DNA of 64,000 nucleotides from positions 1 through 64,000 of the forward strand of contig PNAJ01000142.1 of NCBI GenBank assembly GCA_003170295.1, in the 5' to 3' direction. Shown piece after piece: positions 40,931-44,296 of this stretch (position 1 is the stretch's first letter; every line of letters starts with the position of its first letter). This stretch comes from Bryobacterales bacterium (lineage in GTDB: Bacteria > Acidobacteriota > Terriglobia > Bryobacterales > Bryobacteraceae). A program made the position numbers and the translations under genes. The notes below the pieces were generated by a model. That model saw only the letters and a program-made list of their open reading frames with translations. It had not been told where the DNA came from and made no database searches.

Positions 40931-41884
40931 CTATTCGGGTGGCCCGTAGAGAATCAATTGAATGGGGCGCTCCACCGGAGTCGGGCTGCCGTTGCTCTTA
41001 TTCGCCGCCGCCAGCAACGATTCGGGGCTGAGGCTGAATAGCACCAGGGCCTGAATGTTGGCGGTCGGCCCGCCGCCCGACTGGAGCTTCTTTATCTCGT
41101 CGTTAATCAGGCTCCCCTTCGCAGTCACGAGGCGGACTGGGACGCTGTCGACCTCGCCGTCCATGCGGAAACTGCCTCCCGCGTCCGCCCTGATCGAATT
41201 CGGGTCGATCGCCAGATCGAGCACCGTGAAGTTTCCGATTGTACCTGCGCTGAAACTGATATCCGCGAACTTGCCGTTGGTGGTTACCGTAACGGCCAGC
41301 TGTTGAACGATCTTGAGTGCGGTCGATTCGGACAGACCGCCCTGAAAACCACCCGCGAAAATGTTCGGCGCGAAGTCGAACGTGCCGCTGGCGGAGACCA
41401 GTTCGGTGAGCGGATGCAGCTCCACAGCGTGGTTGGGATTGGAAGCGCCGCCGCCGATCAGATGCTCCGGCCAGATGCGCGGAACCCCCGAAGCGGTGAC
41501 CGAAGTACCGGTGATTTTATCCCCAAAATCGGTCCAGTCCTTATTATTCTGTGGGGTATTGGGCAGCAAAGGTTGCACGCACGCGTTCATCGGCTCGAGA
41601 ACCAGGCCATCGGGATCGCCCGCAAAACTAATAGTGTGCGCGCCAAGGTGCATCTCACAATCGCTGGCAACCGGATGGACAGCGGAGTGGCCTTCAATAT
41701 GGACCGAATCGAGCGTCACCACCACCGCCTGCGACCAATCCTGCAGACTGCTGAGCGGGATCGTGAACTGTTTGGCGCCGGCTGTTTTTGCGATGGCCGG
41801 CGCCGGCGCCGCGGGAGTCCGAACGGCCTCGTTGATAAGGCCGATGGCAAGTGGGAGAACGGCAAGTGCATGCATCGGTTTCAT
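40931..41884 (-). CDS. Hypothetical protein of a three-gene membrane cassette
   Basis: 317 residues with a hydrophobic N-terminus (MHALAVLPLAIGLINEAV), so probably exported or membrane-anchored. The rest is beta-rich: FTIPLSSLQDWSQAVVVTLDSVHIEGH, two cysteines in ASDCEMHLG and MNACVQPL, and a C-terminal ALVLFSLSPESLLAAANKSNG. No domain recognised. Third gene of the operon with the two membrane proteins at 41901-42893; 16 bases separate it from the second. Confidence 0.7.
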   Translation of the reverse strand: MKPMHALAVLPLAIGLINEAVRTPAAPAPAIAKTAGAKQFTIPLSSLQDWSQAVVVTLDSVHIEGHSAVHPVASDCEMHLGAHTISFAGDPDGLVLEPMNACVQPLLPNTPQNNKDWTDFGDKITGTSVTASGVPRIWPEHLIGGGASNPNHAVELHPLTELVSASGTFDFAPNIFAGGFQGGLSESTALKIVQQLAVTVTTNGKFADISFSAGTIGNFTVLDLAIDPNSIRADAGGSFRMDGEVDSVPVRLVTAKGSLINDEIKKLQSGGGPTANIQALVLFSLSPESLLAAANKSNGSPTPVERPIQLILYGPPE

Positions 41885-41900
41885 AAGAAATCCGCGGGGC

Positions 41901-42536
41901 TCAGGCGAGCGTGATCTTCACTACGGCGTCCTCAAATCCAGGCGAGGTCACGCGGAGAGTGACCGTTTTCTCCATGGCTGAGACCGGACCGGAGGGCGGA
42001 TTATATCGAACCCGGTCTGGAGGGAGCGGTGTCAACGAACCGAGTGCGGGCGCCTCCAGAGACCACTGAAGAGGCGGCGCCGGAGCTCCTGGCGCCGCAT
42101 TGGCCGCGGCGGCGGTGAACACCTGCGTATCCGCCGGAGTGGCTTGCGCGAAAGTTGCTGGCGTAACAACCAGCGCCGGGACCGCTTTTTTAAGACCGGC
42201 CGGATCCGAAAACTGGATTCCCTTGCTCACCAGGTACGAAGTGCCGCTGATGCCGAGCAGAGTGAGAATCTGATCGGGGATGGTCGCAGGAAACGCGGGT
42301 CCATGAGGACCGCCGATGATCACCAGGAAAAGGCTCATTGCGATGACCACGGTGAAGATCAGAAGCTGGAGCCGGGACATGCTCGCGTCTCCGTTCGGCT
42401 CCGAGATCAGCATGTTGATGTTAATCTTCTCCTGCCAGATTCGCCATATAATGATCAGGCCAACCAGGCCGACAAAGCCGACAATAACGTATCCAGCGGC
42501 GAGCGCTAAGCTCTGTCCAACAGGGGGAGTGGGCAT
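41901..42536 (-). CDS. Membrane protein of the three-gene cassette, larger paralogue
   Basis: 211 residues. Three hydrophobic segments: LAAGYVIVGFVGLVGLIIIW, LLIFTVVIAMSLFLVIIGG and one around TLLGISGTSYLVSKG, then an Ala/Pro linker and a small beta domain (TVTLRVTSPGFEDAVVKITL) that looks Ig-like. The middle part (SRLQLLIFTVV then LTLLGISGTSYLVSKG) is similar to the smaller protein encoded immediately before it. Its ATG follows that gene's stop directly (TAAATG). Function unknown. Confidence 0.75.
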   Translation of the reverse strand: MPTPPVGQSLALAAGYVIVGFVGLVGLIIIWRIWQEKININMLISEPNGDASMSRLQLLIFTVVIAMSLFLVIIGGPHGPAFPATIPDQILTLLGISGTSYLVSKGIQFSDPAGLKKAVPALVVTPATFAQATPADTQVFTAAAANAAPGAPAPPLQWSLEAPALGSLTPLPPDRVRYNPPSGPVSAMEKTVTLRVTSPGFEDAVVKITLA

Positions 42537-42893
42537 TTATGTTTTCTCCTTTTTCGGGGTGGTCACCGATTGGAAGGCGGCCCAACCCTTGCCGCCGAGA
42601 TAAAGAGCATTACTCAATCCGAGCAATTCGAGCGATCCGTTCGGCAGCGTGGGCATTTGACCCGTCACCGTATGAACCGCATTCAGAAGGTATTGGAAAG
42701 CAATCCATAGGGTCGCGAGCAGCAATTGCACCCGCTCCGGACTGAAGTACGGAACGCCATCGCGCCGCCCGTACAACAGATGGTTCAAGTTGATCCCGCC
42801 CGTGAGGAATCTCAGCGCAATCGTCACCGCGAGACCGCCCACGATGAGAATTACTTCCCATTTAGCGAGCCAGATTAGCAAAGAATAAGACAA
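42537..42893 (-). CDS. Membrane protein of the three-gene cassette, smaller paralogue
   Basis: 118 residues with three hydrophobic segments: EVILIVGGLAVTIALRFL, VQLLLATLWIAFQYLLNAV and LELLGLSNALYLGGKGW. The pattern R-x-Q-L-L, hydrophobic helix, P-x-x-P/N, L-x-L-L-G-x-S, Y-L-x-x-K-G is shared with the next gene, so the two are paralogues and may form a complex. First gene of the operon; it diverges from the candidate RNA gene at 43214. Confidence 0.75.
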   Translation of the reverse strand: MSYSLLIWLAKWEVILIVGGLAVTIALRFLTGGINLNHLLYGRRDGVPYFSPERVQLLLATLWIAFQYLLNAVHTVTGQMPTLPNGSLELLGLSNALYLGGKGWAAFQSVTTPKKEKT

Positions 42894-43180
42894 CGAATCC
42901 TCCGCCAGTCGCCGGGAAAATCAACTGTTTATCTGAATATCTCGATAAGGCTACTGCATTTTTAAACGAAATACAATAGTTAATGGCGGAGTATTTTCCA
43001 TTCCCGGTGCGGGAACTGACTTCCCACTGCTTCCGCTATGCCTCCACCCAAGCTTGAATACAAAACAGATTCGCTCAGCGCTGTTTTATCCACAATTGAT
43101 CCACGGGCCGGCCCTCACAACTAGTTGATTACAAAGCAAATATTTCTTGATGGAAACGCCCGCGCCGAATCGCTTTTTAC
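42894..43180. other. Divergent intergenic region with two hairpins
   Basis: AT-richer than its surroundings. Holds a perfect palindrome TTCCCG-GTG-CGGGAA at 43001-43015 and a nested hairpin at 43062-43087 (AAAACAG, CGC-TCA-GCG, CTGTTTT) that could end transcription from either side. No gene seen. Confidence 0.45.
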
Positions 43181-43209
43181 TTGACTGTAACTGAGTCTCG
43201 GCGCATTAT
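43181..43209 (+). promoter_or_regulatory. Sigma70-like promoter of the candidate RNA
   Basis: TTGACT (43181-43186), 17-base spacer, CATTAT (43204-43209). The -35 box matches five of six and the -10 box four of six consensus bases at the ideal spacing. Predicted transcription start about 43214-43217, exactly where the RNA's closing helix begins. Confidence 0.6.
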
Positions 43210-43213
43210 GACT

Positions 43214-43830
43214 ATGGTTCCAAGAGGTTCGAAGGACAGCGAGCCTGGCGGGAAGTAGCGGATCTGGAACGATGATCCGGAGCGCATGGGGTAAGTAATT
43301 ATTCAAGCGCGACGGGGAGCGAAGGAAGATCGGGCGACTCGCGAGGGCAAGCCTTAATGTTTGGAATCGGGCTGGGCGCTACGATCCGAAGGGATTGAAA
43401 AATCCCGACGGGGAGCGGAGGCCTGACAACAGGCGTTGAGTTCCGAGATCGGACTTAGCAACGGGTTGCGAGCGGTGATCGTACCCCAGGCGGCAATAAA
43501 AAAGCCAAACGGGGACGGGAGTTCAAGACCGAACGGGCTGAGAAAAGTTTCGGAATCGTTTCGAAGATGCAAGGCCAGGAACGTTGACCCGGCCGCGGAG
43601 GTTTGCCGCAAGGCAGATCGTCGCTGACGGAGAGCGAAAGGCCGTATCGAGAAGCGGGTTTCTACCGGAACGGGACAGCGGACGCGCACCGAAGCATCGA
43701 TCCGAGGCCGGATAAAACCAGCCGTGGGGAGCTAAGGGGCCTAACGTCACGCCGTTTCCGGATGCCATGTTCTAGTCGTGCATGCCGACTGGAGAACGAG
43801 TTGACTAACGGGTCACTTGGAACCATTTTT
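43214..43830 (+). ncRNA. Candidate large structured non-coding RNA (~615 nt)
   Basis: No acceptable protein in six frames. The first 11 bases (ATGGTTCCAAG, 43214-43224) are exactly complementary to 43816-43826, which run into TTTTT (43826-43830), so ends pair and a T-tract follows. Hairpins inside: CGGATC/GATCCG (43259-43279), GGGATT-GAAA-AATCCC (43391-43406), GCCTG-ACAA-CAGGC (43421-43434), a bulged stem at 43435-43462, GGGT...ACCC (43463-43486), TGCC-GCAA-GGCA (43604-43615), GTTTC-TACC-GGAAC (43658-43671), ATCCG-AGGC-CGGAT (43700-43713) and GTTCTAGTCG with CGACTggAGAAC (43769-43797). Two loops are GNRA tetraloops. CGACGGGGAGCG occurs twice (43310, 43406). Loops are purine-rich on this strand. 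I cannot assign it to a family. Confidence 0.6.
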
Positions 43831-43906
43831 CGTTCACTTGACCCACCTGCCGCGCAACTCCTCCATCTTTCACGAACTTGACCATGCGTAAATTCTGCTG
43901 CGGCAA

Positions 43907-44296
43907 CTAAGGTAGCGACTGCTTGGCCTGCTCTTCGGCGTCGGGAGCATCCCCCGCGCGCCAACTATGCTTTTCCTTGCACGGACGGAAACTGGCGAAA
44001 TTGCAGCGGCACGCGGGACAGCGGTAAGGGGTAGCTCCGCAACGAAGCATGAAAACGGTCCAGCGAGGCGGATGATAGTACTGCTCGCTCCATGTTGTAA
44101 GTTCCTGGCGATAGCACCGCGGACACCGGGCGTACTTCCAGGCTCCCGCCGCCCACACGCTGGTCTTCCAACGATTGCGGCAACGGCGGCACCGCAGCGG
44201 GTAGATTCCGAACAGCGCGCGAACTTCCTCCCCAAAACTCTGCTTGTGCGAGACCCGAACATCGCGTGTGCCACATTTGGGACAAGAGAGTTGCAT
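43907..44296 (-). CDS. Small zinc-ribbon protein
   Basis: 129 residues with four zinc-knuckle pairs: CPKCGTRDVRV near the start, LRCRRCRNRW, CPRCYRQEL and YRCPACRCNFASF, which suggests two zinc ribbons (each made from two knuckles). Hydrophobic content is low in most of it, with one short non-polar piece (WTVFMLRCG). It could bind nucleic acid or be a membrane-associated ribbon protein. It converges on the candidate RNA, 77 bases from its end. No function assigned. Confidence 0.75.
   Translation of the reverse strand: MQLSCPKCGTRDVRVSHKQSFGEEVRALFGIYPLRCRRCRNRWKTSVWAAGAWKYARCPRCYRQELTTWSEQYYHPPRWTVFMLRCGATPYRCPACRCNFASFRPCKEKHSWRAGDAPDAEEQAKQSLP

Follow-up and report, generated by a model that had tools for sequence, protein, structure and literature searches.

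A conserved RNA of about 600 nt in Bryobacterales with five predicted kink-turns and a palindromic, possibly dimerising loop

Background

Large, ornate bacterial RNAs such as OLE, ROOL and GOLLD are few, and each of them has been hard to explain. These three are all found in Rfam 15 together with the raiA motif RNA and HEARO, which are also large classes of bacterial non-coding RNA. GOLLD is encoded by phages and prophages. Outside the ribosome, kink-turns usually number one or two per RNA.

OLE RNA, a Gram-positive family, is approximately 600 nt long and ornate. The passages on it in PMC9723947 describe a kink-turn that is bound by YbxF/OapC, and according to those in PMC12286853 it homodimerises through a symmetric kissing loop whose palindrome changes from one version to another. 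In the same part of PMC12286853, ROOL and GOLLD are presented as large self-assembling RNAs, ROOL as phage/prophage encoded and raiA as a monomer. Loop L21a of GOLLD covaries at adjacent bases, and the argument for kissing loops in OLE and GOLLD is that such bases cannot pair with each other in one chain (PMC12286853). A standard simple kink-turn, as outlined in PMC4316175, has a C-helix pair, a bulge of three nucleotides, the pairs G1b.A1n and A2b.G2n and the NC helix, and kink-turns serve protein binding or tertiary contacts. The Solibacter-1 motif is a candidate RNA of the bacterial group to which the RNA described here belongs; the table row in PMC2864571, on which our comparison is based, lists it for Solibacter usitatus only, with RNA status '?' and no Rfam entry, and the two may be identical.

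Comparison with described RNAs

The window, i.e. the whole stretch of 64,000 nt that was analysed, belongs to a genome of 6.2 Mb in 168 contigs, which is 82.9% complete and holds one copy of the RNA. The candidate RNA covers positions 43216-43824 of the forward strand, 609 nt with the closing helix included, and position 1 of the RNA numbering is 43216. An initial annotation of this DNA had proposed a non-coding RNA of ~615 nt, possibly of a new family, which is supported by strong covariation, the lack of a conserved protein frame and Rfam scores below the cut-offs.

The cmscan search named in that annotation was carried out for the whole window, where no Rfam 15 family reached its gathering cut-off. 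For the region 42950-44050 at E<=10, the sole match was CRISPR-DR20 on the minus strand (E 2.9, 16.6 bits, cut-off 42); OLE, ROOL, GOLLD, raiA and HEARO gave no match at this level. The likeness to OLE, ROOL and GOLLD which had been suggested is borne out in size and style, but not as family membership. RNase P RNA (RF00010) was found in 13 of 13 genomes, and the host genome carries a normal one on contig C166 while the window is on C63, which rules out this identity. No description of the RNA was found in the titles and abstracts of the open-licence literature searched.

The RNA exceeds ~500 nt, is non-coding, has many covarying helices and has its own predicted promoter. As a kind, it appears to join the large ornate bacterial RNAs, to which it would add one more, and its family appears new; that it is a new structured RNA family we regard as practically certain. 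Its plan of five kink-turns and a self-complementary loop is unusual, and about a hundred copies are readable (80 plus 18 hold-outs).

Data sets

The main set consisted of 80 non-redundant copies of 579-642 nt, obtained from 85 by removing five near-identical ones. Four false reverse-strand matches (three mismatches) and the partial copy L028 were left out. The set was limited to copies having both ends found 560-720 nt apart, together with L017 and L020, which were added by hand; it leans to full-length copies.

Two covariance models were used, R1 covering the 5' 121 positions of the RNA and R2 the 3' 65 positions, the latter including loop F (listed below) and four of its stem pairs. R2 was built without four atypical rows and then without 20 of the remaining 76 (author's choice). 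Twenty additional sequences were fetched among the R2 matches, and were thereby selected for the 3' end including loop F and not for the arms. Following removal of L178, a duplicate of L130, and of the truncated L179, a set of 18 hold-outs remained, 492-655 nt long and having 64-83% identity to the nearest copy used. L164 and L177 are only 492-493 nt long and arm C is missing from L149, L160 and L164; it seems that an arm, when lost, goes as a complete module.

Promoter and ends

The following features define the ends of the RNA:

43181..43209, + strand: predicted promoter, TTGACT (-35) at 43181-43186, 17-nt spacer, CATTAT (-10) at 43204-43209; predicted start at G43216
43216..43224, + strand: closing helix P1, 5' strand GGUUCCAAG, pairing with 43816-43824
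43816..43824, + strand: closing helix P1, 3' strand CUUGGAACC, from the structure counts
43825..43830, + strand: A plus T-tract directly 3' of the closing helix, from the T-count in the copies

The TTGACT-N17-CATTAT element reported earlier is present at 43181-43209. A TTGAC with an xAxxxT at a spacing of 17 or 18 nt was found in 75 of the 76 copies having enough upstream sequence, and the distance from the end of the -10 box to RNA position 1, the first G of GGUUCC, is 6 nt in 74 of these 76. This G is therefore the expected start site.

Two further claims about the ends hold exactly. The 11 bases ATGGTTCCAAG at 43214-43224 are the reverse complement of CTTGGAACCAT at 43816-43826, and the latter leads straight into TTTTT, ending at 43830. 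At least 6 T are found within 10 nt after the closing helix in 71 of 76 copies. No local terminator hairpin precedes the T-tract, and 0 terminator-like sites were found in the window stretch. For this reason the partner strand of the helix would, if termination is intrinsic, be supplied by the 5' end of the RNA itself. A T-tract after a helix whose other strand lies 600 nt upstream makes 43815-43830 a possible long-range terminator which would report the completion of folding.

Secondary structure and covariation

Seven hairpin loops (P2 and A-F) make up the conserved structure, with helix P3 enclosing three of the arms:

43225..43246, + strand: hairpin P2; 85.2% of cells paired, 2/7 pairs change on both sides, end pairs weakly supported
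43248..43342, + strand: arm A with predicted kink-turn A; C43270, loop 43271-43273, GA 43274-43275 / GA 43317-43318, G43319
43349..43352, + strand: helix P3, 5' strand, pairing with 43658-43661 and enclosing arms B, C and D
43353..43440, + strand: arm B with predicted kink-turn B; C43379, loop 43380-43382, GA 43383-43384 / GA 43413-43414, G43415
43446..43550, + strand: arm C with predicted kink-turn C; C43473, loop 43474-43476, GA 43477-43478 / GA 43519-43520, G43521
43557..43656, + strand: arm D with predicted kink-turn D; C43582, loop 43583-43585, GA 43586-43587 / GA 43632-43633, G43634
43608-43611, + strand: GNRA tetraloop of arm D, GNRA in 71/80 copies
43658..43661, + strand: helix P3, 3' strand, from the structure counts
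43662..43764, + strand: arm E with predicted kink-turn E; C43695, loop 43696-43698, GA 43699-43700 / GA 43729-43730, G43731
43769..43797, + strand: hairpin F, whose loop of 7 nt (43779-43785) includes the palindrome GCAUGC (43780-43785) and is proposed to form a kissing dimer

The structure was assembled from the stems found by covariation, the closing helix, P2 and the helices of the kink-turns, giving 134 pairs. In the 80 copies 87.5% of 10607 cells are paired, compared to 36.0-47.2% in slid controls. These 134 pairs were derived from the same 80 rows as were scored, which the 18 hold-outs answer in part: 80.4% of their cells are paired, against 36.6-47.2% when slid. The fold energy of the single sequence has a z of -5.6 relative to 20 shuffles.

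Changes on both sides occur at 109 of the 134 pairs, and the covariation score is 0.488 versus at most 0.143 in slid and 0.204 in shuffled controls. Among the top 50 covarying column pairs 34 are canonical, the corresponding number being 1-8 in 10 tree-aware null alignments. When all column pairs were compared with the tree-aware null only 4 reached E < 0.05, all of them canonical and in proposed helices. The covariation which the initial annotation had named as a check is thus strong in homologues, as measured by the top 50 pairs, the changes on both sides and the hold-outs.

The individual helices differ in their support. P1 is paired in 99.9% of cells, and its covariation is small because it is nearly invariant, while P3 is paired in 96.3% with changes on both sides at 4/4 pairs. 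In arm A the covarying stems are 33-36/124-127, 48-50/109-111 and 61-69/93-101 (RNA numbering). Stems are weak in arm C and at the tip of arm D, with 63.8%, 67.5% and 55.7% of cells paired.

Some details reported from the single sequence had to be adjusted. Internal hairpins are present, but the count of at least nine was too high. The 16-base direct repeat is found at 43310-43325 and 43406-43421 with 15 of 16 bases alike. As for the GAAA and GCAA tetraloops, a GNRA loop is conserved in arm D, but in the other arms it is found in 16-40 of 80 copies.

Coding potential

The ORF-poor stretch of ~1 kb noted earlier was recovered, as the gene caller places no gene between 42893 and 43907 in the window and a mechanical ORF list for this interval contains only open frames of at most 111 amino acids. 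A protein-coding gene, or a GC-rich spacer folding by chance, could nevertheless be argued from the minus strand, which has long stop-free stretches (median 154 codons), and from a crude gene caller, which in 42 of 85 loci called open frames that overlap the RNA. Against this, the 49 gene calls over the RNA share no common frame, being spread across all six (minus 13, 13 and 9; plus 7, 4 and 3). Substitutions by position modulo 3 are 887/874/865, i.e. without codon-position bias, and most gaps break the frame (gap lengths modulo 3: 622 of remainder 1, 225 of remainder 2 and 111 of remainder 0). No protein frame is conserved across the homologues, a finding which the initial annotation would have taken against an RNA gene had it turned out otherwise. 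A protein gene was ruled out on these counts, and as both the gene and the spacer are contradicted by the covariation, we give this explanation next to no weight.

Kink-turns

The five arms A-E share one plan: a closing pair, mostly C-G, a bulge of 3 nt, a GA with a GA opposite and then a helix. All five thus have the sequence features of the standard simple kink-turn (PMC4316175). The tandem G.A/A.G is kept in 80 (A), 75 (B), 70 (C), 73 (D) and 72 (E) of the 80 copies and in 15, 16, 8, 16 and 13 of the 18 hold-outs, respectively. Counting only kink-turns with both flanking pairs, 39 of the 80 copies have five, 28 have four, 12 have three and 1 has two, so that at least four are present in 67. 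A common register is used in 370 of 400 cells, against at most 185 of 400 when either strand is moved by as many as four bases. In single sequences, a kink-turn pattern is not a discriminating criterion (mean 6.26 matches versus 3.33 in shuffles), and the case for the kink-turns therefore rests on their position across homologues. Judged by this fixed position, an array of five kink-turns is very probable.

Arm C is the most variable and least kept of the arms, and is missing in a few copies. The C-helix of arm A has one Watson-Crick pair followed by a purine-rich internal loop. A second, conserved purine-rich internal loop lies just below the kink-turn in arms A (43266-43269/43320-43323) and D (43578-43581/43636-43639).

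The tandem G.A and register counts served as a test of the likeness to Kt-7. Kt-7 and the kink-turn of the SAM-I riboswitch also have a 3-nt bulge followed by G.A and A.G (PMC4316175); the RNA described here differs from both in its five predicted kink-turns in one chain and one register.

Five sites in one register, with U prevailing at bulge position L3 of arms A (76/80), B (55/80), D (63/80) and E (55/80), could suggest a scaffold for protein assembly, in which the kink-turns bind one small kink-turn-binding protein to give a multi-protein particle. There is a precedent in the binding of YbxF/OapC to OLE RNA, as described in the relevant passages of PMC9723947. However, the L7Ae family (PF01248) gave 0 matches in 61 genomes, among them 28 or 29 with a DNA match to the RNA, while a control search gave PF01248 matches in 7 of 14 named genomes. 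L7Ae sites were rejected on this basis, and the scaffold, for which another kink-binding protein would have to be assumed, is in our view unlikely. Since no L7Ae-family protein was found in the 61 genomes, the predicted kinks are probably architectural; they are more likely to act as hinges in tertiary folding, or to be bound by some other protein. With such an array in genomes that lack a detectable L7Ae family, it would become possible to test whether kink-turns serve natural RNAs as an independent building system.

CsrB-type RNAs titrate CsrA through repeated GGA motifs. GGGGAG is repeated in the RNA and CsrA (PF02599) is found in 27 of the 61 genomes, the host included, which would fit a CsrA sponge. 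However, six genomes that are at least 92% complete (G010, G013, G018, G020, G025 and G034) carry the RNA without a CsrA match, and the GGA motifs lie within the kink-turn strands, where the GA opposite is equally conserved, and not in hairpin loops. As CsrA does not follow the distribution of the RNA and the GGA motifs lie outside the hairpin loops, the CsrB-type sponge was rejected and we hold it to be highly improbable.

The palindromic loop

An automatic loop finder gave 50 of 80 palindromic loops, as it chose alternative stems, and was replaced by a count in fixed columns. By this count the hexamer of loop F is palindromic in 72 of 79 rows and occurs in five versions: GCAUGC (64), GCUAGC (5), GUAUAC (1), UCAUGA (1) and ACAUGU (1). 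Three further rows have GUAUGC, which is self-complementary with wobbles. The next-best windows of six columns reach 21/79, in a window overlapping the hexamer itself, and 15/80. Palindromes other than GCAUGC were observed 8 times, compared to a mean of 0.46 and a maximum of 5 in 2000 column shuffles, and GCUAGC requires three changes on the tree. Among the hold-outs 11 of 18 are palindromic (GCAUGC 5, GCUAGC 5, GCGCGC 1) and 7 are not.

The hexamer is unique within the molecule in 69 of the 72 palindromic RNAs, so that an exact partner is mostly not available in its own chain. The adjacent bases A567 and U568 swap together, and by the argument used for the OLE and GOLLD kissing loops in the cited part of PMC12286853 this points to pairing between two molecules. 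A palindromic loop covarying at adjacent bases is what would be expected in sequence of a symmetric kissing loop. We consider a homodimer formed by loop F to be somewhat more probable than not; the RNA would in this differ from the monomeric raiA.

A monomeric ribozyme or ligand-binding RNA, in which the palindrome has a different use, e.g. base-pairing to some other RNA of the cell, would agree with the conserved blocks that exist outside the named pairs and with the 7 of 18 hold-outs in which the palindrome is not kept. It agrees poorly with a loop that switches among the self-complementary hexamers GCAUGC, GCUAGC, GUAUAC, UCAUGA, ACAUGU and GCGCGC, since pairing with an external partner whose sequence is fixed would not lead to switching from palindrome to palindrome. 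Such a monomer seems to us rather doubtful, though less so than the protein scaffold.

In L173-L175 (genus g35) the tandem G.A is kept in all five arms and the palindrome is lost (GCAGAC, GCAGAC and UCAGAA). These copies form a natural test group for dimerisation.

Proposed mode of action

As a whole, the observations are best explained by a free, trans-acting RNA with five kinked arms that homodimerises through loop F, which we consider likely. A sigma-70-type promoter of its own would give a free RNA of ~600 nt acting in trans, neither a messenger nor a cis-regulator of a fixed neighbour. Pairing of the 5' and 3' ends would close the molecule, and arm A, a block within P3 that comprises arms B, C and D, then arm E and hairpin F would radiate from junctions. 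Each of arms A-E has its predicted kink-turn in a common register, and this turn may bend the distal half of its arm inwards to the core; tertiary contacts would hold the whole as a compact body. The palindromic loop F, being exposed, could pair with its counterpart on a second molecule, and the resulting symmetric dimer would be the working unit, i.e. a scaffold, a catalytic RNA or an RNA-protein particle. A trans-acting dimeric RNA machine or scaffold is the most likely reading.

As the 5' end is the only partner strand for the helix before the T-tract, release of the RNA may be coupled to its folding. More tentatively, five kinked arms, a palindromic-loop dimer without an L7Ae-type protein and release coupled to folding might together represent a new class of RNA object. 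The RNA is a compact and well-conserved target for cryo-EM.

Distribution and genomic context

Within the order Bryobacterales 250 genomes were sampled, and R1 matched 141 of them, corresponding to 60 of 84 genera. In a sample of the phylum it matched 3 of 297 genomes, namely the host genome, one congener and one weak match of 26 bits. R2 matched 57 of 399 genomes of the class, 56 in the family of the window and one weakly. Several genomes, G023, G064, G113, G144, G207 and others, have two or three R1 matches each. A DNA search gave matches in 29 of 61 genomes, the host included, of which the match in G038 covers 24 bases only and is probably due to chance; 24 of the 27 other loci read align over nearly the full length with 60-77% identity.

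A single-pattern search of a named genome collection returned 95 stretches, and among the 80 listed nearly all carry the names Bryobacterales, Solibacter, Terriglobia or Acidobacteria in their titles. Two copies, L067 and L126, come from MAGs titled Bradyrhizobium sp. LY.7 and Acidimicrobiia bacterium, which are probably misnamed or mixed. The same exact pattern had no match in viral contigs, and blastn gave none against phages or against plasmids; a phage or plasmid RNA was rejected on these grounds, and the RNA differs in this respect from ROOL, described as phage/prophage encoded in the part of PMC12286853 cited above. No recurrent mobile gene beside the RNA was noticed in passing among the neighbouring gene calls.

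In the window the RNA is flanked by a gene of 118 amino acids at 42537-42893 and a zinc-ribbon gene at 43907-44296, both on the minus strand. Downstream of the RNA a zinc-ribbon gene is found in 25 of 85 loci and a class IV aminotransferase gene in 36. The congeners G001, G007, G014 and G015 (completeness 93-99%) are without the RNA and retain the aminotransferase and zinc-ribbon genes, their loci extending 1.0-1.1 kb beyond the pair. A link to one neighbour gene was therefore rejected, as this pair stays without the RNA and other copies of the RNA adjoin a different gene; the changing neighbours argue against a role in cis.

Upstream, a divergent glycosyltransferase-9 gene is present in 13 of 85 loci, never together with the YCF48-like gene that ends at most 400 nt upstream on the same strand in 34 of 85. 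In the window the YCF48-like gene (to 40928) is separated from the RNA by three minus-strand genes without Pfam match (40931-42893), and because the YCF48-like gene adjoins the RNA in those 34 loci, the three genes seem to have been inserted later, in the lineage of the window.
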